64,000 bases of DNA from Aromatoleum toluolicum. Its GTDB lineage: Bacteria > Pseudomonadota > Gammaproteobacteria > Burkholderiales > Rhodocyclaceae. Positions 7,248-51,474 of the stretch are shown here, in pieces (position 1 is the stretch's first letter; every line of letters begins with the position of its first letter). The notes under the pieces are model-generated. The model was given only the letters and a program-made list of their open reading frames with translations, did no database searches and was not told the origin of the DNA. Where the stretch lies: the NCBI RefSeq assembly GCF_012911005.2, contig NZ_WTVS01000003.1, positions 62,001 to 126,000 of the forward strand. The letters run 5' to 3'. A program made the translations under genes and the position numbers.

Positions 7248-8289
7248 ACAGGCTTCCCTTCCCGCTTCCGCCGGCCGCTTCATCGTGCGCGTCGCGCGTG
7301 CGGACGACGCCGCGGCCTTCCATGCGCTCGTGATCGAGGCCGACGGCGCACTGGAGCGCCATGCGGAATCGCCCGAGGCGAGCCGCGCGACGCTGGAGCG
7401 AGTCGGGCGCAGCCTCGCCGGCGAGGCGAGCGACGCGGAGCGCGGCTACCTGCTGCTGCTGGAGGACCGTGCGAGCGGGGAGGTGGTCGGCTGCGTCCAG
7501 CTCGCGTGCAGCATCGGCCTGGATCAGCCGTTCTACGACTATCGCCTCGGCAAGATCGTCCATTCCAGTTCGCGCCTGAAGTCCTACCGCTGCCATGACG
7601 TGCTCTACCTGTGCAACGACCTCACCGGCTGCAGCGAACTGCACAGCTTGTACGTGCGGCGTGATGCGCGGGGGATGGGCGGCGCGGAACAGCTGACGAA
7701 GGCCGCCCAGCTCTTCATCGCCACGCATCTTGCCGAGTTTGCGCCGCGCACCATCATCGAGATGCACGGCGTGCGCGGTGCCGACGACACGTCGCCGTTC
7801 TGGGAGGCGGTCGGGCGGCACTTCTTCAAGGTCGACCAACGCGGCGCCGAGCGCCTCGTCGCGCAGGGCCGCAAGGCCTTCATCGCCGAGCTGATGCCCA
7901 AGCATCCGGTCTACCTGAGCCTGCTGCCCGAATCGGCGCAAGTCACCGTCGGCGGCATCCACCCCGAGGTCGCCGCGCTCGCGCGCCTGCTCGAACAGGA
8001 CGGCTTCCACTTCGAGAACCACGTCGACATCTTCGATGCCGGCATGGTGCTGGAAGCGCACACGCGCACGCTGAACGGCGTCGCCAACAGCCACGAAATC
8101 GCTGTGGAGGAGGGCAATCCGGCGCAAGGGGCAGGAGCGTGGTGGATCGCGGCGGGCGAGGGCGCGGGCTTTCGCATGTCCGCTGCCGCCGGCGTGCTCA
8201 TCGAGGACCGCCTGCGTCTGTCTCCAGAGACCTTGTGCGGGCTCGGCGTACAGTCCGGCGCCGCGTTGCGCGCGCTGGGTGCGACATAA
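7234..8289 (+). CDS. aruG: Arginine N-succinyltransferase, beta subunit
   Basis: Second AstA-family subunit, 351 residues from a GTG start at 7234 that overlaps the end of aruF by 14 nt. It repeats the family landmarks: IVRVARADDAAAFHAL at the N-terminus, a central LHSLYVRRDARGMGGAEQL acyl-CoA-binding-like region, and IAELMPKHPVYLSLLPESAQ near residue 220. The close overlap suggests 1:1 production with AruF. The downstream 150 bp hold only a REP-like palindrome, so the operon probably ends here. Confidence 0.9.
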   Translation: MSRHEQASLPASAGRFIVRVARADDAAAFHALVIEADGALERHAESPEASRATLERVGRSLAGEASDAERGYLLLLEDRASGEVVGCVQLACSIGLDQPFYDYRLGKIVHSSSRLKSYRCHDVLYLCNDLTGCSELHSLYVRRDARGMGGAEQLTKAAQLFIATHLAEFAPRTIIEMHGVRGADDTSPFWEAVGRHFFKVDQRGAERLVAQGRKAFIAELMPKHPVYLSLLPESAQVTVGGIHPEVAALARLLEQDGFHFENHVDIFDAGMVLEAHTRTLNGVANSHEIAVEEGNPAQGAGAWWIAAGEGAGFRMSAAAGVLIEDRLRLSPETLCGLGVQSGAALRALGAT

Positions 8290-8319
8290 GGGCTGCCGCC
8301 AGTCGCGGCTGCGGACCGT

Positions 8320-8413
8320 AGGGCGGGAGGAGCGCAGCGCATCCCGCCAATCCAGCCTCCCGCGACATACCCAGCGCCGCATGGCGGGATTCGCCTTCGG
8401 CTCCTCCCGCCCT
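8320..8413. repeat. REP-like intergenic palindrome
   Basis: AGGGCGGGAGGAGCGCAGCG begins at 8320 and continues to CATCCCGCCAA. It is mirrored by TGGCGGGATTCGCC, then TTCGGCTCCTCCCGCCCT ending at 8413. The two arms form an imperfect inverted repeat of about 30 bp with a 30-bp centre. This GC-rich GGCGGG...CCCGCC type resembles dispersed REP elements seen between genes in many betaproteobacteria. It marks the boundary between the arginine operon and the defence-type island, and may also serve as a transcription terminator. Confidence 0.7.
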
Positions 8414-8490
8414 GCGCCTGCTAATCGGCCCATCGGCCTGTTGTGCTATATTTGGCATCAATTAAGATGTCTTTTATGTCGAGGCTCACG

Positions 8491-8736
8491 ATGGACAAGA
8501 TCATCGCCAACATGACCGTGAGCGTGACCGAGCTCAAGCGAAACTTTGCGGGCATTCTCAGGGAGGCGGACGACTGTCCCGTGGCCGTCCTGAACCACAA
8601 TCGGCCCGAAGCCTATCTGCTTTCGGCCGCTCACTACGAGCGCCTGATGGCGTACCTCGAAGACCTCGAAGACGCCCGGACGGTGCGCGAACGCGCCGAT
8701 GGGCCATTCGTCGAGGTCGGTCTCGATGACCTATAG
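8491..8736 (+). CDS. Antitoxin of a RelBE/Phd-type toxin-antitoxin pair
   Basis: Small 81-residue protein predicted to bind and neutralise the RelE-like toxin encoded next and to repress its own promoter. I chose the ATG at 8491 because GAGG lies 7 nt upstream and the product MDKIIANMTVSVTELKRNFAGIL starts with the Phd/YefM DNA-binding fold. The middle, VAVLNHNRPEAYLLSAAHYERLM, is the characteristic YefM/Phd beta-alpha segment; the acidic C-terminus should wrap the toxin. AT-rich sequence with a TATATT lies just upstream (8447-8452). The gene overlaps the toxin start by 11 nt. Confidence 0.88.
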   Translation: MDKIIANMTVSVTELKRNFAGILREADDCPVAVLNHNRPEAYLLSAAHYERLMAYLEDLEDARTVRERADGPFVEVGLDDL

Positions 8737-9016
8737 GCTGCGCTTTCACGAACTCGCGCTGCAGGAGTGGAGGAAGCTGGACGGCTCCCTGCGCATGCAG
8801 TTCAAGAAGAAGCTGGAAGAGCGCCTCGAGAACCCGCGCGTACCTTCGGCCGCACTTGCGGGTATGCCCGACTGCTACAAGATCAAGCTGAGAAGTGTGG
8901 GCTACCGGCTCGTTTACCGTGTGGATGATGACATCGTCTTCGTGACGGTGATCGCCGTCGGCAGACGGGACGGAAACCGCGTTTACGCGCAGGCCCAGGG
9001 GCGCCTCGAGGAATAG
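8726..9016 (+). CDS. RelE-family toxin (mRNA interferase)
   Basis: A 96-residue protein expected to cut mRNA at the ribosome when its antitoxin is degraded. The family features are LRFHELALQEWRKLDGSLRMQFKKKL at the N-terminus, then the basic core CYKIKLRSVGYRLVYRVDDDIVFVTVIAVGRRD. The conserved Arg and Tyr positions of RelE are visible in RSVGYRLVY. Start at the ATG 8726 overlapping the antitoxin is typical of the type II arrangement. The pair sits at the left edge of an island with restriction, Fic and helicase genes. Confidence 0.88.
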   Translation: MTYRLRFHELALQEWRKLDGSLRMQFKKKLEERLENPRVPSAALAGMPDCYKIKLRSVGYRLVYRVDDDIVFVTVIAVGRRDGNRVYAQAQGRLEE

Positions 9017-9077
9017 CATCGCAGGGCACGAAGCATCATCCCCCCAGCATTCCCCGAGCGGTTAACTTCCCCGCTTC

Positions 9078-12000
9078 ATGCCGCCCGGAAGCCCCGCCGT
9101 GACCGCCTCGCTGATCGCCACCTTGCCCCCGCCCGCCGTCGACCTCTTCATCCAGCGCTGGCAGAAGGCCGGCGGCAGCGAGCGCGCCAACTACCAGCTC
9201 TTCCTCACCGAGCTGTGCGCGCTGCTCGACCTGCCCCTGCCCGAACCGGCCGGCGACGACACGCGCGACAACGCCTACGTGTTCGAGCGCCGCGTCGTCA
9301 TGCGCCAGCCCGACGGCAGCAGCAACAACGGCTTCATCGACCTCTACCGGCGTGGCACCTTCGTGCTGGAGGCCAAGCAGACCGGCAAGACGCTCGACTC
9401 CTCCGGCTGGGACAAGGCCATGCTGCGCGCCCACAACCAGGCCGACCAGTACGCCCGCGCGCTGCCCGCCGACGAGGGCCGCCCGCCCTTCATTCTCGTC
9501 GTGGACGTCGACCGCAACATCGAGCTGTACGCCGAGTTCAGCCGCTCAGGCGCCACCTACACGCCGTTCCCGGACCCGCGCAGCCACCGCCTCCGCCTCG
9601 AAGACCTGCGCCGCGAGGACATCCGCGAGCGCCTGCGCTGCGTCTGGCTCGACCCGCAGAGCCTCGACCCGGCGCGCCGTTCCGCGCGCGTCACGCGCGA
9701 GATCGCCGACCGCCTCGCCACCCTCGCCAAGTCGCTCGAAGCCGCCGGCCACCCGCCGCAGAAGGTCGCCGGCTTCCTCATGCGCGCGCTGTTCACGATG
9801 TTCGCCGAGGACGTCGGCCTGCTGCCGGCCAGGAGCTTCACCGACCTGCTGCTGAGCCTCAAGGATTCGCCGCTCACCTTCGCGCCGATGCTCGAACACC
9901 TGTGGCAGAACATGAACGTCGGCGGCTTCTCGCCCATCCTGCGCGGCAACGTGCTGCGCTTCAACGGCGGCCTGTTCAGCGACGCCACCGCCATCCCGCT
10001 CGACCGCGACCAGCTCGAACTGTTGCTCAAGGCCTCGCAGGCCGACTGGCGCTACGTCGAGCCGGCGATCTCGGCACCCTGCTCGAACGCGCCCTCGACG
10101 CCCGCGAGCGCCACAAGCTCGGCGCCCACTACACCCCGCGCGCCTACGTCGAACGCCTCGTGCTCCCCACCGTCATCGAGCCGCTGCGCAGCGAATGGAA
10201 GGAAGTCCAGACCGCCGCGCTCGCCTTCGAGCAGCAGGGCAAGCACCGCGAGGCCGACGTCACGCTCGAACACCTCAAGCGCCTCGAAGGCGAAGTGCTC
10301 AACCTGCTCCACGACCTTGGCGAATCGCAGGGCCTGCTCGAACTTGAAGGCGTCACCGTCGACCCGCACCAGTTCCTCGGCCTCGAGATCAACCCGCGCG
10401 CCGCGAAGATCGCCGAGATGGTGCTGTGGATCGGCTACCTGCAATGGCACTTCCGCACCCACGGCTCGGTGAACCCGCCCGAACCGGTGCTGCGCGACTT
10501 CCGCAACATCGAGCACCGCGACGCGCTGATCGCCTACGAGCGCGAGGAACTCGTCACCGACGAAGCGGGCCGTCCGGTCACGCGCTGGGATGGCGTGACG
10601 TACAAGCCGAGCCCGATCACCGGCGAGCCGATCCCGGACGAGACGGCGCAGACGGTGCAGGTGAGATACGTGAATCCGAAGAAGGCGGAATGGCCGCAGG
10701 CGGATTACATCGTCGGGAATCCGCCGTTCATCGGCTGCAAGCGGATGCGGGCGGCGCTTGGCGACGGCTATGTCGACGCGGTGCGCGGCACCTGGCCGGA
10801 AGTGCCGGAGTCGGCGGACTTCGTCATGTACTGGTGGCACATCGCCGGCGAGCGTGTGCGCGCCGGTGGCGCGCAACGCTTCGGCTTCATCACCACCAAC
10901 TCGATCCGTCAGACCTTCAACCGGCGCGTGATCGAGGCGCAGCTCAGCGCGAAGAACCCGCTGTCACTGGCTTTCGCGATTCCCGATCATCCGTGGGTCG
11001 ACGCGGCGGACGGGGCGGCGGTACGGATTGCGATGACGGTGTGCGTAGGCGGAGAAACGGAGGGAAAGCTGCTCAATGTGATCGAACAGCGAGAAACCGA
11101 TCGTGACGACGTCGATGTAACGCTCCAGGAACGGACAGGAAAACTCTTTGCAAATCTGAATGCCGGAGTAGATGTCGCTGGAGTGAAGGCATTGCGCGCC
11201 AATCTCGCAATTAGCTCCCCGGGTGTGAAACTGCATGGCTCGGGTTTTATCGTCACTGCCGATGAAGCACAGCAACTCGGCGTTGGCCAAGTCGACGGAC
11301 TGGACAAACACATTCGCGCATATCGCAATGGTCGCGATCTCGCCGACCACCCGCGTGCCGTTTACGTAATCGATTTGTTCAGTTTATCGGCAGACGATGT
11401 TCGCCGTCGATTTCCAGCCGTCTACCAAAGGGTTCTGGAACGGGTGAAACCTGAGCGCGACCACAATGGCCGAGCGGCTTATCGCGACAACTGGTGGATC
11501 TTCGGGGAAGCGCGTAGAGACTGGCGCTCGATGGTTGCCGGTCTGTCCTCCTACATCGCCACCCCAGTTACGGCAAAGCATAGAATTTTCCAAGCACTCG
11601 GTACGGACGTTCTGCCCGATGATGCGCTGATGAATATGGCGATTACGGATGCCGCTGTACTTGGAGTTCTGTCGTCGCGCGTACATACGAAATGGGCGTT
11701 CGCTACTGGTAGTACCTTGGAAGATCGTCCGCGCTACATAAAATCCGCGTGCTTCGAAACCTTCCCCTTCCCCGACGCGCTCCCCGAGCAGCAAGCCCGC
11801 ATCCGCGACCTCGCCTTGCAGCTCGACGCCCACCGCAAGCGCCAGCAGGCGCAGCACCCGGCGCTGACGCTCACCGGCCTGTACAACGTGCTCGAAAAGC
11901 TGCGCAGCGGCGAGACCCTGAACGCCAAGGACAAGGCGATCCACGAGCAGGGCCTGGTGTCGGTGCTGCGCGAGCTGCACGACGCGCTCGACGCCGCGGT

Positions 12001-37322: not shown

Positions 37323-38945
37323 TCAGGCGGCGTTCTCGAACAGCTCCGGGGGGATATCCTCGGGGCACAGCTGGCTGGCCTCGTCTCCCATCAGGGCGAG
37401 CATCAGGCGCAGCTGGTTGCGCAGCTCGCGCAGGTTGCCCGGCCAGCGGTGGCGGTGCAGCAGCGCAAGCGCCTCGGGGCACACGTAGACCGGTCGCCCG
37501 CCGGCGACCTCGCGCACGACATGGCGCACGAGCTCGTCGAAATCGTCGCGCTCGCGCAGCGGCGGCAGGCTGATGATCCGGCCGCCGGCCGCGTCGAAAT
37601 TGCGCAGGTCGAGTCGTCCCTCACGGCGCAGTTCGGCGAGCGGACGCCGTGCCGCACCGATCACGCGGGCGCGGCTGCCGTCGTGGGCGTCGAAGAGTCG
37701 TGCCTGCAGCGTCGTGGGTAGTGCGTCGATCTCCACGAGGAAGAGGATGCCGTTGGCCGCCTGCACCCAGGCGCGGTCCAGCTCCGCCTCCGCGGCCTCG
37801 CCCGCGGGCAGGGCCGTGCAGTCGATGCCGATCAGCGGTGCATCCGCGGTTGCTTTGTGGTCTTCATGGAATGCGCGCACGAGATGCGCCTTGCCGGTCC
37901 CCATCTCGCCTTCGATCAGCAGCGGCGTGTTCTCGGCGGCGCAATTGCGCAGCGTATCGACGATGCGCGCGATGCGCCCGTCGCCGCGGCCGATCGCGCC
38001 CAGACGGGAATCGTCGTAGCGGGCCGTCGCGGCGCGCGGTGCCGTGTCGGCGTGGCGTCGCGAACGCAGGTTGGCGCGGGCGATGAGCGTGCGGCCTTTC
38101 AAGTCGTAGAGCGGGAAGGGCGCGTCGGGCGCCTGCGCTGCCCAGCCGACCAGCCTGTTCCAGGGCGTCGTGAAGCAGGCTTCATAGATCGTCGCGGGAT
38201 GCGCCGCGTCCAGACCGAGCATCCCGCGCGCTTTGCGATTGCTCGCGACGAGCCGGCCGCCTTCGTCGAACACGACGAGCGCGTGCAGGGGGTCCGCGAG
38301 CGCATCGCGGCGCGTGTGGAAGTGCAGTGTGAGGAAGCCGTCGTCCAGCGTTTCCAGCAGGCGGTGCTCGATCAGTTCGGCCGTCGTACGTAGCAGCGCC
38401 TCGGCGTGTGTGAGGTTTTCGCGCGCATCCGACGATACGTCGAGGATGCCGAGCATGCCGCCGGTGGGTGCGAGGATGGGCGTGGCGACGCAGGTGAGGA
38501 TGCGGTTGCGCGCGAGGTAGTGTTCGTCGCCCTGCACCGTGACGACCGTGCCGGAGTGCAGCGCCGTGCCGATCGCGTTGGTGCCCATCGTGGCCTCGCT
38601 CCAGTCGACGCCGGGTCGCAGCGCGACGCGGCTGGCACGGTCGAGGAAGTCGGTGTGGCCCAGCGCGCTGAGGATCATGCCTTTGCGGTCGGCCAGCAGT
38701 ACCGTGGATGACGGGCTGCCGATCTGGCGGTACAGGCCTTCGATCATCGGGCGCGAGAACGCGAGCAGCCGGTTGTTCGCGGCGATGCGGTCGGTGAGTT
38801 CGCCCGGCGCGAGCGCCGTGTCGTTGAGCGGTTCGTCCGGACGAAGGCCGTGCTCGCGGCTGCGCTGCCACGATGCGATGAGCGGTTCCGGTCGGGATGT
38901 GGGGGGTGACGCTTCCATCATGGGAAGCGATGAAGCATGAATCAT
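37323..38945 (-). CDS. Degenerate AcoR-like sigma-54 regulator lacking GAFTGA and HTH
   Basis: 540 residues from the ATG at 38945. The N-terminus is AcoR-like: [20 protein letters not shown], then a GAF domain with [32 protein letters not shown]. In the AAA+ part, Walker A is kept ([10 protein letters not shown]). Walker B reads LFLVEID with Val in place of Asp, the whole GAFTGA loop is deleted, and the protein stops after the [12 protein letters not shown] segment without the C-terminal Fis-type DNA-binding helix. It therefore cannot be a normal sigma-54 activator; it may be a sensor partner or modulator. It is divergent from exaC. A longer start at 39032 is possible. Confidence 0.82.
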
Positions 38946-39014
38946 TCCGTCGCCGTCGAACCGCGCGGGCAAAGGGGTTTTCCCGGCAGCGGGGCGTGCG
39001 TGGTGCGGCGCCGT

Positions 39015-39050
39015 TGTCACGCATCGGAACAAGTGTTGCCTTGTTGAGCA
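39015..39050. promoter_or_regulatory. Paired 17-bp palindromes upstream of exaC (activator site)
   Basis: TGTCACGCATCGGAACA (39015-39031) and TGTTGCCTTGTTGAGCA (39034-39050) start 19 bp apart. They resemble TGTTCC-N5-GGAACA at 10 and 9 of 12 defined bases. The same pair arrangement, in better form, precedes the PQQ-associated cluster at 41080. They lie about 115 bp upstream of the exaC sigma-54 promoter, a normal enhancer distance. Confidence 0.55.
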
Positions 39051-39164
39051 GGCCGGAGCAGGGCAGGGCGGCGGGGCAGTCGGTGGCGAAATTATGCCGG
39101 CGTGTGGTGCAAGTTATTGTTCGCTAGATGAAAGATGTCTCTGGATGAGGTGGTGGCGCTTGCT

Positions 39165-39180
39165 GGCACGCGCCCTGCGG
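39165..39180 (+). promoter_or_regulatory. Sigma-54 promoter of exaC
   Basis: TGGCACG-CGCC-CTGCG keeps the -24 GG and -12 GC with the exact 10-bp interval of TGGCACG-N4-TTGCA. Only the first T of TTGC differs. It is about 60 bp upstream of the exaC ATG. Confidence 0.65.
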
Positions 39181-39240: not shown

Positions 39241-40743
<1,503 letters not shown>

Positions 40744-40761
<18 letters not shown>

Positions 40762-47669: not shown

Positions 47670-47721
47670 CCTGCTCCTGTCACGCCGTGGAGCAGGTGCT
47701 CCAAAACGGAACAACGGGGGC

Positions 47722-47811: not shown

Positions 47812-48654
47812 TCAGGGAATTCTGTGCGTGACCCCGTGAGCCGAGAAGATCCGCCCGAGTTCACCCGAGCGCTGCAGTTCCGCCAGCGCCTCCGACAGCG
47901 CCGCGGCCAGCTCCTTGCTTTCGGCCTTCACGGCCATGCCGAGCGGCCAGCCCTTCACACGCAGCTCGGGCATGGTCAGCGCGTCGATCGCGAACTGCTT
48001 GTGCTCCTTCATTGCCGCCTCCAGCTGGCTGCGCGGGGCCATCACGGCGCTCACTTCACCCTTGGCCATCGCGGCTGCCGCTTCGGCAACGCTGCGGAAA
48101 TGCACGACGTTGTCGCGCAGCCGCCCGTTCAGCACATGCAACATGAAGTCGCTCGCGTGTGTGTCGAGCTCGACGCCGATCTTCTCGCGCGTGAACACTT
48201 CGAAGGCGACCGCGGCCGAACCCGACACCGACGGCACACGCTCGGGATTGCGCGCGATCGCGATCGTCTCGAGGTGATAGGGACCGAAGATCGCCACCTT
48301 GTCGTTCTGTGCCGCGAACTGCGCATCCACGGGCACATGCAGCATCACGTCGGCCGGGCGCCGGCCGAGGTAGTGCCCTTTCCACACCATGTTGCGCAGG
48401 TCGTCGCTCATGTTCTCGTCGGGCGGGAACTCGACGATCTCCGCGCGCATCCCCAGGCGCTCGGCCAGGGACTGCGCGATGGCCACGTCGATGCCCTTGC
48501 CGCGCGCCGAGAACGGCGCGTAGTCGGCATACACGGCCACCCGCAAGGTGCCCGCCTGCTGCACTTCGAGCTGTGCGGCCGCGTGGGCCGGGAGCAGGGC
48601 GCCTGCCAGCATGGCGCCCGCTGCGATCAGGAATGCGCGTCGTTCATTTTTCAC
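47812..48654 (-). CDS. Quinoprotein dehydrogenase-associated periplasmic binding protein
   Basis: 280-residue exported protein with a signal peptide (about 1-27). The mature part has the amino acid-binding (SBP family 3) fold: LRVAVYADYAPFSARGKGIDVAIAQSLAERLG and a late VKGWPLGMAVKAESKELAAALSEAL. This family is typically encoded beside PQQ-dependent alcohol dehydrogenases and their cytochromes. It overlaps the PedF-like gene by 11 nt, so the two are co-translated. No permease or ATPase is associated; a periplasmic accessory role is more likely than transport. Confidence 0.85.
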   Translation of the reverse strand: MKNERRAFLIAAGAMLAGALLPAHAAAQLEVQQAGTLRVAVYADYAPFSARGKGIDVAIAQSLAERLGMRAEIVEFPPDENMSDDLRNMVWKGHYLGRRPADVMLHVPVDAQFAAQNDKVAIFGPYHLETIAIARNPERVPSVSGSAAVAFEVFTREKIGVELDTHASDFMLHVLNGRLRDNVVHFRSVAEAAAAMAKGEVSAVMAPRSQLEAAMKEHKQFAIDALTMPELRVKGWPLGMAVKAESKELAAALSEALAELQRSGELGRIFSAHGVTHRIP

Positions 48655-49148: not shown

Positions 49149-49164
49149 CGCAAGCCCTGTGCCA
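49149..49164 (-). promoter_or_regulatory. Sigma-54 promoter of the PedF operon
   Basis: Minus-strand TGGCACA-GGGC-TTGCG (49164 to 49149) has the -24 GG and -12 GC with the exact 10-bp interval and near-consensus bases. It lies about 90 bp upstream of the TTG start of the PedF-like gene. Confidence 0.7.
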
Positions 49165-49222: not shown

Positions 49223-49238
49223 TGGCAGGAAAATTGCT
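49223..49238 (+). promoter_or_regulatory. Sigma-54 promoter of the AcoR-type regulator gene
   Basis: Plus-strand TGGCAGG-AAAA-TTGCT has near-consensus -24 and -12 elements at correct spacing, 120 bp upstream of the regulator ATG. It faces away from the PedF sigma-54 promoter 60 bp to the left, giving a back-to-back pair. The regulator may thus control its own gene. Confidence 0.65.
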
Positions 49239-49357
49239 CCTCTGTTGTTGCCGGTTCGGATGAACGATTGCTTCGAGCTGGTGCAGGTGCTACTTTCTGA
49301 CACAAGGGACAAACAAAAAAATAGTCCCCAAAGTGACGCGCAGGAGAGGAGGAGAAG

Positions 49358-51427
49358 ATGGCCGTATTGCCGCAATTGCGGGATCGCCGCGAGAACACCA
49401 TTTCGGACGCGCGACGATTTTTCTTCGAGCTTGGCCAGACGCCGGAGGCCGGGCTCGCCCCTCCTGTGCTGCGTTCCTGGCAGCGCTGTCGCAACGGCGG
49501 GCTCGACCACCTCGATGCCTACATGATCGACCCGGCGGGCCGCGCCCAGCTCTCCGACGCGCGCGACCGCAGCGCGCGTCTGCTGGAGCACGCCGGCGGG
49601 ATCATGGAACACGTGTTCGAGCAGATCCGCGCCTCCGGCAGCATGGTCATCCTCGCCGACACCAAAGGCATGATCCTGCACTGCCTCGGCGATCCGGATT
49701 TTGTCGGCCGTGCGCAACGCGTCGCACTGCAGCCGGGCGCGTCGTGGGATGAAACCTTTCGCGGCACCAATGCGATCGGCACCGCGATCCTGGAAGGTGC
49801 ACCGGTCGAAATCCATGGCGCCGAACACTACCTGGAACGCAATGGCTTTTTGACCTGCAGTGCCGCGCCGGTGTTCAACGCACAGGGATGTCTCGCCGGC
49901 GTGCTCGACATCTCGGGCGATTCGCGCAACAACCAGCGCCATACGCTGGGTCTGGTGCGCCTCTCGGTGCAACTGCTCGAGAAGCGGCTCTTCGAGGCGG
50001 AGTTCGCCAAGGAAATCCGCATCGCCTTCCATCCCCGCCCCGAATACGTCGGCAGCCTGCAGGAAGCGCTGCTCGCGGTCGACGCCGACGGCCGCATCGT
50101 CGGCGCCAACCCGGTCGCGCGCGAGTGGCTGGGGCTTGCGGCGGGGCTCGCCGACGCACCGTCCTTCGGCACGCTCTTCCGCACCGGCTTCGGTCAGGTG
50201 CTCGATCGCGCGGCCAACGCGCCCGACGATCTGCTGCTGCTCGAAATGCGGCGCGGCGACGCCGTCTTCGTGCAGGTGCGCGGCCACCGGCGGACGCGCC
50301 CCGAGGTCCATGCGCCCAGATTGCAGGAAGCGGCACCGGAGTCGGCAAAGGGGCCGGCGAAAACCTCGGACGGTTCGAAAGGTCGCATCACCCTCGACAG
50401 CCTCGCGACCGGCGACGCGCGCCTGCAACTCGCGCTCGACCGCGCGCGCCGCGTGCAGGGGAAGGACATCCCGCTGCTGATCCAGGGCGAATCGGGTGTC
50501 GGCAAGGAACTCTTCGCTCGCGCCTTCCACAACAGCGGCGTGCGCAGCGACGGACCCTTCGTCGCGCTCAACTGTGCGGCGATTCCCGAGAACCTCATCG
50601 AATCGGAACTCTTCGGCTACGTCGGCGGCTCCTTCACCGGCGCGCGGCGCGAAGGAGCGGTCGGCAAGTTGCAGCAGGCCCACGGCGGCACGCTGTTCCT
50701 CGATGAAATCGGCGACATGCCGCTCGGCATGCAGGCGCGACTGCTGCGCGTGCTGCAGGAGCGCAGCGTCACGCCGATCGGTTCGATGAAGTCCATCCCG
50801 GTCGATATCTCGCTCGTGTGCGCAACCCACCGCGTGCTGCGCGACGCGGTGAAGCAGGGCGTGTTCCGCGAAGACCTCTATTACCGCGTCAACAGCCTCA
50901 CCGTCACCCTGCCGCCCTTGCGCGAACGCACCGACGTCCGTCGTATCGTGCTGAACCTGCTCGAGATCGAAGCGGCCGACCGGCGGAGCGGGCCGCTCGG
51001 CATCAGCGAAGAGGTCATGGACTTCTTCGAACGCTACCCCTGGCCGGGCAACGTCCGCCAACTCCAGAACGTCATCCGCGTCGCCGTCGCGCTGCTCGAC
51101 GACAACGAGGACGAGATCGCGTCGATCCATCTGCCCGAGGAGCTCTTCGGCATCGACGGCGGGGACGACAATTCGGAGCCCGCCGCGCGACCAGCGGTCG
51201 CGATGGCCCCGGCCTATACCTCGCCTTTTGCCGCCGCCGTACCGACCGCGGCCGCTGCGCTTGCCCCCTCGGCGCCCGCACCCGGCGCTCCGCGCAGTCT
51301 GGATGAAATCGAACTGGAAGCGATCACCACGGTCATGCGCGAGGTGGGCGGAAACGTCTCGGCCGCTGCGCGCAGGTTGGGCGTCAGCCGCAATACGCTC
51401 TACCGCAAGCTCGGCAAATTGAACTGA
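49358..51427 (+). CDS. AcoR-type sigma-54-dependent activator
   Basis: 689-residue enhancer-binding protein, the intact counterpart of the degenerate one at 37.3 kb. N-terminus: PVLRSWQRCRNGGLDHLDAYM, then a GAF domain with [36 protein letters not shown]+ domain: Walker A GESGVGKELFA, sigma-54 loop GSFTGA (a GAFTGA variant), Walker B LFLDEIGDMP, and the REDLYYRVNSLTVTLPPLRER segment. C-terminal Fis-type helix-turn-helix: GGNVSAAARRLGVSRNTLYRKLGKLN. It lies upstream of the aor operon, and is the best candidate activator for the sigma-54 promoters in this region. Confidence 0.92.
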   Translation: MAVLPQLRDRRENTISDARRFFFELGQTPEAGLAPPVLRSWQRCRNGGLDHLDAYMIDPAGRAQLSDARDRSARLLEHAGGIMEHVFEQIRASGSMVILADTKGMILHCLGDPDFVGRAQRVALQPGASWDETFRGTNAIGTAILEGAPVEIHGAEHYLERNGFLTCSAAPVFNAQGCLAGVLDISGDSRNNQRHTLGLVRLSVQLLEKRLFEAEFAKEIRIAFHPRPEYVGSLQEALLAVDADGRIVGANPVAREWLGLAAGLADAPSFGTLFRTGFGQVLDRAANAPDDLLLLEMRRGDAVFVQVRGHRRTRPEVHAPRLQEAAPESAKGPAKTSDGSKGRITLDSLATGDARLQLALDRARRVQGKDIPLLIQGESGVGKELFARAFHNSGVRSDGPFVALNCAAIPENLIESELFGYVGGSFTGARREGAVGKLQQAHGGTLFLDEIGDMPLGMQARLLRVLQERSVTPIGSMKSIPVDISLVCATHRVLRDAVKQGVFREDLYYRVNSLTVTLPPLRERTDVRRIVLNLLEIEAADRRSGPLGISEEVMDFFERYPWPGNVRQLQNVIRVAVALLDDNEDEIASIHLPEELFGIDGGDDNSEPAARPAVAMAPAYTSPFAAAVPTAAAALAPSAPAPGAPRSLDEIELEAITTVMREVGGNVSAAARRLGVSRNTLYRKLGKLN

Positions 51428-51458: not shown

Positions 51459-51474
51459 TGGCATGATATTTGCA
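51459..51474 (+). promoter_or_regulatory. Sigma-54 promoter of the aor operon
   Basis: TGGCATG-ATAT-TTGCA is the best -24/-12 match in the window: one deviation (T for C in the -24 box) and the correct interval. It lies 51 bp upstream of aorA. The AcoR-type gene directly before it is the likely activator. Confidence 0.8.

Follow-up and report, generated by a model that had tools for sequence, protein, structure and literature searches.

A conserved degenerate enhancer-binding-protein homologue divergent from exaC in Aromatoleum toluolicum is a candidate sensory regulator of a linked intact activator

The window analyzed is a stretch of 64,000 nucleotides from a contig of Aromatoleum toluolicum. 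At positions 37323-38945 of its minus strand, gene A encodes a degenerate homologue of the enhancer-binding proteins (bEBPs), designated P0001, which consists of an N-terminal helix, a GAF domain, a PAS-like segment, a remnant of a P-loop AAA+ domain, and a lid. Gene A is divergent from exaC (39244-40761, plus strand), which encodes an acetaldehyde dehydrogenase (NF050026, 951.5 bits for a cut-off of 900). Past exaC are found ABC-transporter genes and the PQQ-associated genes TIGR03866, TIGR03863, and TIGR03861 (PedC). The region of pedC is followed by a cytochrome c gene, by gene B (49358-51427, plus strand) encoding P0002, an intact activator and the presumed partner of P0001, and by a tungsten aldehyde oxidoreductase operon. 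An operon of this kind appears as aorABC of Aromatoleum aromaticum in passages of PMC6365974, the main text of which does not contain the word 'regulator'.

The four best sigma-54 -24/-12 sites of the window precede exaC (TGGCACGCGCCCTGC, 39164-39178, plus strand) and, as detected by site scan, the cytochrome c gene (TGGCACAGGGCTTGC, 49150-49164, minus strand), the P0002 gene (TGGCAGGAAAATTGC, 49223-49237, plus strand), and the tungsten aldehyde oxidoreductase operon, where the element is sigma-54-like (TGGCATGATATTTGC, 51459-51473, plus strand). The presence of four sites with a score of at least 10 is not a significant excess for the window (mean of 1.65 in simulated sequences, with 9 of 60 simulations reaching four) and only the positions of the -24/-12 sites are therefore informative. 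Upstream from exaC, a site scoring 9-10 of 11 was present 69 to 124 nt before the gene in 34 of 34 loci, comprising 26 loci with a degenerate and 8 with an intact form of gene A (interval searched, 60-130 nt). A weak sigma-54-like GG-N10-GC site (CGGAATGATTCATGC, 38935-38949, minus strand), possibly the promoter of gene A, overlaps the annotated start of this gene. It scores 7 of 11, as does its counterpart in the Aromatoleum group closest to the window; near the start of gene A in the other loci, the scores are 8-9 except for locus L062 (7). The methionine taken as the start in five orthologues (L032-L036) aligns with the M9 column of P0001. This alignment and the overlap between the start at 38945 and the GG-N10-GC site make the first 8 codons of the annotated gene doubtful. 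The true start may be M9 or M10 (about 38921 and 38918, respectively), which would shorten the protein by 8-9 residues.

The reading frame of gene A is uninterrupted across 540 codons, in agreement with an earlier sequence-only reading of this DNA. Pfam searches detected the GAF domain (47.4 bits), a Sigma54_activat domain split in two stretches (50.4 bits in total), and AAA_lid_14. HTH_8 was not found by Pfam in P0001, which ends ahead of the expected position of this domain. The same searches with P0002, which corresponds to the intact AcoR-type protein that the sequence-only reading had located at 49.4 kb, detected GAF, Sigma54_activat (216.1 bits), AAA_lid_14, and HTH_8 (53.3 bits). The two proteins share 33% identity over residues 13-536 of P0001 (blastp). 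Alignment of P0001 with P0002 and intact homologues showed that Walker A is kept (GEMGTGKA), that the FLDEI of Walker B has become FLVEI, and that both AAA+ insertion loops, L1 (GAFTGA) and L2 (pre-sensor-1), are gone. The arginine fingers are missing, and the glutamate-switch Asn is replaced by Asp. The Walker B DE pair, the arginine fingers, and the glutamate switch are motifs of ATP hydrolysis. The sequence-only reading had correctly identified the retention of GAF and Walker A, the substitution of the Walker B Asp by Val, the deletion of GAFTGA, and the absence of a Fis-type HTH; it had missed that the pre-sensor-1 loop and the arginine fingers are also gone and that the Asn of the glutamate switch is changed. 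P0001 is related to bEBPs by descent, as indicated by its Sigma54_activat and AAA_lid_14 domains and by its fold, and, among the features of a functional bEBP, it retains Walker A and is devoid of GAFTGA, of the ATP hydrolysis motifs, and of HTH_8. Taken from the sequence, these comparisons indicate that P0001 is a protein that has lost its DNA-binding, sigma-54-contact, and ATP-hydrolysis parts and in which GAF, P-loop, and lid are conserved.

The predicted fold of P0001 (AlphaFold2; mean pLDDT of 76.4, pTM of 0.48) was used for structure searches. Residues 20-231 of the model matched DhaR(N) with a Z score of 22.6, and residues about 312-540 matched the AAA+ domains of LuxO, NtrC1, FleQ, and PspF (Z of 18-20). 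The label 'AcoR-like' initially given to P0001 is thus a loose one, since the N-terminal half is closest to DhaR both for the solved fold and for the NCBIfam model, although the score obtained with the DhaR equivalog NF008485 (134.3 bits) does not reach the cut-off of 551. PADLOC returned three matches, all to models of the RtcR type and all over the AAA+ part of P0001.

Close orthologues of P0001 (57-100% identity) were detected in 16 of 101 genomes, i.e. its own, which is counted, and 100 relatives, and all of them are devoid of GAFTGA and HTH. A scan of genome contigs retrieved 18 loci. Of these, 14 are degenerate (Aromatoleum, Azoarcus, Parazoarcus, Thauera, and one Rhodocyclales MAG), whereas the remaining 4, which come from MAGs of Rhodocyclaceae, Zoogloeaceae, and an uncultured betaproteobacterium, are intact. 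In 249 genomes of the family, profile scores separated 20 degenerate genes (579-1077 bits) and 26 intact genes of the same clade, referred to as clade A (456-526 bits), from other activators (365 bits at most). The intact class is thus defined by profile score for 26 of 46 genomes and verified by sequence for 13 rows of the alignment; one of the 26 score-defined genes (G222) contains an in-frame TGA. A sample of 300 genomes of the order yielded, at an E value of 1e-125, the genome of the window as the sole match. Searching plasmids for P0001 gave matches that were all below 60% identity, the best among the matches listed being about 36%. In titles and abstract openings, a scope that leaves most subscription journals outside, no description of the family of P0001 was found.

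Degenerate rows were picked by BLAST closeness to P0001 rather than by motif. In the 29 rows, which include P0001 and originate from Aromatoleum, Thauera, and their relatives, the reading frames are unbroken in several genera, GAFTGA and HTH are absent in every case (29/29), and the glutamate-switch Asn is always replaced by Asp. The first arginine finger is lost in 29/29 and the second in 26/29 of the rows as aligned, with an Arg displaced by one or two positions in some rows. The Walker B Asp is lost in 28 rows, the DE pair being kept in G014 (L120), and its position is occupied by V, K, I, S, T, or C depending on the lineage. The Walker B Glu is replaced by Asp in 10 of the 29 rows, and the sensor II Arg by Ser in 13. 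The P-loop GExGxGK is kept in all 29 rows, with an invariant Lys. Conversely, the full motif set is present in 13/13 intact clade-A rows and in 16/16 rows of the P0002 type. Apart from the Walker B of L120, partial forms between intact and degenerate were not found among the rows aligned.

The 800 nt downstream from the degenerate genes were searched in all frames and showed no HTH-like motif (29/29 loci, with 304 nt available for L126). The loss of the HTH in P0001 is therefore not a frameshift artefact, and neither a frameshifted nor a separate HTH was found in this interval. This result argues against the idea that P0001 is bound to DNA through a borrowed HTH. The conserved P-loop would be compatible with such a protein and also with a general ATP-binding metabolic sensor having no role in transcription. 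However, gene A is mostly divergent from exaC and sigma-54-like sites are found near its start, pointing to that regulon, and we consider both possibilities to be very improbable.

The sequence-only reading had suggested looking for the same losses upstream of exaC-type genes, and a divergent exaC was indeed found within 600 nt of gene A in 26 of the 29 degenerate loci; two of the others are at a contig edge (L104 and L105) and one has no exaC (L106). A divergent exaC is also present beside gene A in 8 of the 13 intact loci, the exceptions being L133, L108, L109, L111, and L112. The degenerate gene of G150 (8235-9752; L106/L064), which has no adjacent exaC, is the fastest-evolving member of the group, and part of its conserved GAF sequence is altered. 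In two Aromatoleum genomes lacking gene A, G004 (L129, 7707-11334) and G006 (L130, 8210-11699), a different activator homologue, 39-41% identical to P0002, is divergent from a further exaC homologue (74%). In G009 (L126, 4420-8778), a P0002-like match (35%) and an ExaC-like match (31%) are located between exaC and the ABC genes.

In a tree based on the full alignment (64 rows), the degenerate rows are all on one side of a branch (support of 100/100) with a long stem of 0.73. The intact clade-A rows sit between the degenerate group and P0002, in an order that is weakly supported (85/67). L106 forms a long branch in this tree; it was left out of a tree based on the GAF/PAS columns, which recovered the degenerate group with an SH-aLRT value of 99. 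On these trees, the clade of P0001 is nearest to full activators, 8/13 of which are divergent from exaC. The simplest history would be a single loss from an intact clade-A activator, which is located beside exaC in many living relatives.

Selection was estimated by NG86, a rough method for which some dS values were high, as medians over 28 pairs from 8 Aromatoleum genomes. For degenerate A, the dN/dS ratios were 0.220 for the N-terminus, 0.067 for GAF, 0.213 for the PAS-like segment, 0.402 for the linker, 0.181 for AAA+, and 0.187 for the lid (overall median of 0.169 over the 28 pairs), each segment being well below 1. For P0002, the 28 pairs gave 0.045 for GAF, 0.021 for AAA+, 0.203 for the lid, and 0.052 for HTH. 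Thus, the AAA+ core of degenerate A is about nine-fold relaxed in comparison to that of P0002, whereas the constraint on GAF approaches, and that on the lid equals, the level seen in P0002. Nine further degenerate pairs gave 0.14-0.645 for AAA+ and 0.040-0.366 for GAF; the values for six intact clade-A pairs were 0.017-0.198 and 0.020-0.143, respectively. These ratios indicate that the motor is freed from its former constraint yet not neutral, and that the sensor and the lid are held.

Simple decay would have P0001 as a former activator of exaC that was made redundant by P0002 and is now eroding. The existence of full-motif orthologues together with relaxed selection had been proposed as the signature of such a process, and this expectation was borne out in part: intact orthologues are present in 26 genomes, the AAA+ core is relaxed, and the catalytic residues are drifting among lineages, as exemplified by the Walker B Asp and by sensor II (R or S). 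In contrast, the frames are unbroken, the P-loop Lys is invariant, and the AAA+ ratio is below 1 in all 37 degenerate pairs measured. A pseudogene, with dN/dS near 1, is not what these values describe, and the constraint on GAF and lid does not fit simple decay, which we regard as very improbable. The proposal that the gene is under selection for another role gains support from the grouping of the degenerate rows in one clade, their uniform loss of GAFTGA and HTH, and the low median dN/dS of every segment.

An orthologue of P0002 was found in 46 of 46 clade-A genomes, versus 20 of the 203 other genomes of the family (Fisher p of 1e-34, kinship being ignored); the latter 20 carry P0002 without gene A. 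In a set of 56 genomes, P0002 was present in 28/28 genomes with degenerate A and in 26/26 with intact A, and the two remaining genomes (G004 and G006, Aromatoleum) had neither A nor P0002. Co-occurrence is equally strict for intact A and, consequently, need not reflect the degenerate state. P0002 was found in the same fetched locus as gene A for 23 of the 29 degenerate and 11 of the 13 intact loci, several others being cut by the ends of contigs or stretches. In one genome (G007; L124, 14202-16207), the orthologue of P0002 is divided between two frames by a frameshift or, perhaps, an assembly error, and the degenerate gene is intact. The distribution of the tungsten oxidoreductase was also considered. 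AorB is present in 24/28 genomes with degenerate A, in 17/26 with intact A, and in both genomes devoid of A, and is far from P0002 in several genomes; a link between aor and degeneration was rejected.

A putative enhancer (UAS; TCGGAACAAGTGTTGCCTTGTTGAGCAG, 39024-39051, plus strand) is located about 210 nt before exaC. A match at a distance of 195-245 nt was obtained for each of the 21 non-redundant loci, compared with control means of 1.5 of 21 for simulated sequences and 1.8 for random stretches. Its consensus is near GGARCAGGTGT-N7-TKGARCA. A weaker, similar element is present between the cytochrome c gene and the P0002 gene (CTGGTGCAGGTGCTACTTTCTGACACAA, 49278-49305, plus strand; p of 0.037 with the exaC-UAS matrix, stretches from its own locus serving as control). 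Applied to cytochrome c/P0002 intergenic regions, this matrix gave p values below 0.05 in 25/25 cases against shuffled sequences (near-copies left out; the shuffling could revert to a plain one when a dinucleotide path failed) and in 29/34 cases when the control was made of other stretches from each locus. If known sites were retained in this control, a p value of 0.05 was reached by only 10 of the 34 loci, and, within the window, 4 of the 248 control stretches scored as high as the element before P0002. Single-genome matches before P0002 are therefore only suggestive, and the element appears modestly exaC-like. A third UAS-like element (GTGGAGCAGGTGCTCCAAAACGGAACAAC, 47677-47721) lies between the 3' ends of two convergent genes, pedC and the gene at 47812-48654, and 13 of the 21 locus rows tested, some from the same genome, contain a similar element in this gap.

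No means by which P0001 could bind DNA or sigma-54 is known, and exaC must therefore be served by another, intact activator. P0002 appears to be the best candidate, judging from genomic context, although another of the 24 proteins of the genome with a full-length Sigma54_activat domain (P0002 included) might fulfil this function. The pairing of the two proteins that the sequence-only reading had suggested as a possibility is supported indirectly, by their strict co-occurrence, by the linkage of their genes, and by the resemblance of the enhancer-like elements. The explanation that we favor, with somewhat less than even confidence, is that P0001 functions as a sensory bEBP relative without catalytic activity and controls, via P0002, exaC and probably also the PQQ-alcohol/aldehyde oxidation genes linked to it. 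P0001 would bind P0002 through its AAA+/lid surfaces, its GAF-PAS surfaces, or both, and the binding to GAF of a ligand, derived from an alcohol or an aldehyde or consisting of a protein, would set whether P0002 fires. Proteins are as plausible as small molecules in this role since DhaR(N) was solved with DhaK and DhaL. In a mixed ring, P0001 would supply neither an arginine finger nor a GAFTGA loop, and these absences make a negative sign the most likely one. By default, P0001 would accordingly poison the ring until the ligand frees it. The case for a precise role at the ring interface is weakened by the fast evolution of AAA+ in some pairs, for which dN/dS reaches 0.645.

The opposite sign would make P0001 an assembly subunit joining P0002 to direct or complete an active complex at exaC, as in the case of FleT, which, according to passages of PMC7175178 and PMC11999139, has neither sensor nor DNA-binding domain, is inactive alone, and works with FleQ. 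Retention of the P-loop in every degenerate row and a lid as constrained as that of P0002 are in keeping with such a positive function. However, a protein deprived of the first arginine finger, of GAFTGA, and, in 28/29 rows, of the Walker B Asp could hardly contact sigma-54 or complete the site of its neighbor, making this possibility rather unlikely. Marginally less so is a third possibility, in which P0001 senses via GAF and acts on a target other than P0002, by analogy with DhaR and DhaK/DhaL; this target could be a different activator, a small protein, or an enzyme, for instance ExaC. The N-terminal half folds like the part of DhaR solved in complex with these two proteins, GAF is the most constrained segment of P0001, the genome encodes 23 further full-length Sigma54_activat domains, and exaC is the usual divergent neighbor of degenerate A (26/29). 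Nevertheless, strict co-occurrence is with P0002, L106 has gene A with no neighboring exaC, and DhaR binds DNA, which the known domains of P0001 cannot do.

Beyond this locus, the regulatory scheme in which P0001 acts on P0002 may be extended, as a bolder and more tentative proposal, to a conserved family of sensory pseudo-ATPases that would have arisen in one lineage from a sigma-54 activator deprived of its motor, its sigma contact, and its DNA binding, each being the ligand-gated poison subunit of the ring of a neighboring paralogue, so that ring composition would switch alcohol/aldehyde oxidation. The sensor and the P-loop are kept, the rest is lost, and the intact sister group is often found at the same position, providing a natural before-and-after experiment. 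The lineage of P0001 may therefore reveal how an AAA+ transcription activator turns into a regulator of its own paralogue, and it leads to a clear prediction on how PQQ-alcohol oxidation, ExaC, and perhaps the oxidation of aldehydes by the tungsten enzyme are controlled in Aromatoleum and Thauera.

Activators of the AcoR/EatR (PA4021) type combine a GAF-AAA+-HTH architecture with an exaC-type neighbor and are full activators; P0001 resembles them in architecture and neighbor but is not a full activator. DhaR, TyrR, and HupR are similar to P0001 in the loss of the sigma-54 interface, DhaR providing in addition the closest N-terminal fold and the best NCBIfam match; unlike P0001, the three proteins retain a DNA-binding domain. 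Azoarcus anaerobius, the host of RedR1/RedR2, is a near relative of Aromatoleum. Hetero-oligomers or co-dependence of paralogous activators are known for VnfA1/VnfA3, HrpR/HrpS, and RedR1/RedR2, in addition to FleQ/FleT (passages of PMC9542535, PMC11999139, and PMC7175178), and none of the partners in the first three pairs is presented as catalytically dead in the relevant passages of PMC9542535. A survey covering some 5,000 activators (PMC3162934, in part) lists types lacking the sensor, the DNA-binding domain, or both, and mentions TyrR, DhaR, and HupR as GAFTGA-deficient homologues described as sigma-70 dependent. FlgR of Helicobacter and CtcC of Chlamydia have no DNA-binding domain, as is the case for P0001, but are classed in passages of the survey as functional activators, whereas P0001 is degenerate. 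Accessory activators without sensor and/or DNA-binding domain are thus part of this survey, whereas the combination of features found in P0001 is not described in those passages of PMC3162934. A close parallel is FleT of Rhodobacter (Cereibacter) sphaeroides, described in parts of the cited work as having no DNA-binding domain, as being unable to activate alone, and as forming hetero-oligomers with intact FleQ; the putative P0001-P0002 hetero-oligomer would be of this type, as suggested by co-occurrence and linkage. FleT, which was compared by description, differs from P0001 in that it is also devoid of a sensor, whereas in P0001 GAF/PAS is retained and the motifs for catalysis and sigma-54 contact are lost; FleT probably retains the GAFTGA loop, since it is among the functional types in the GAFTGA-filtered survey as presented in passages of PMC3162934.
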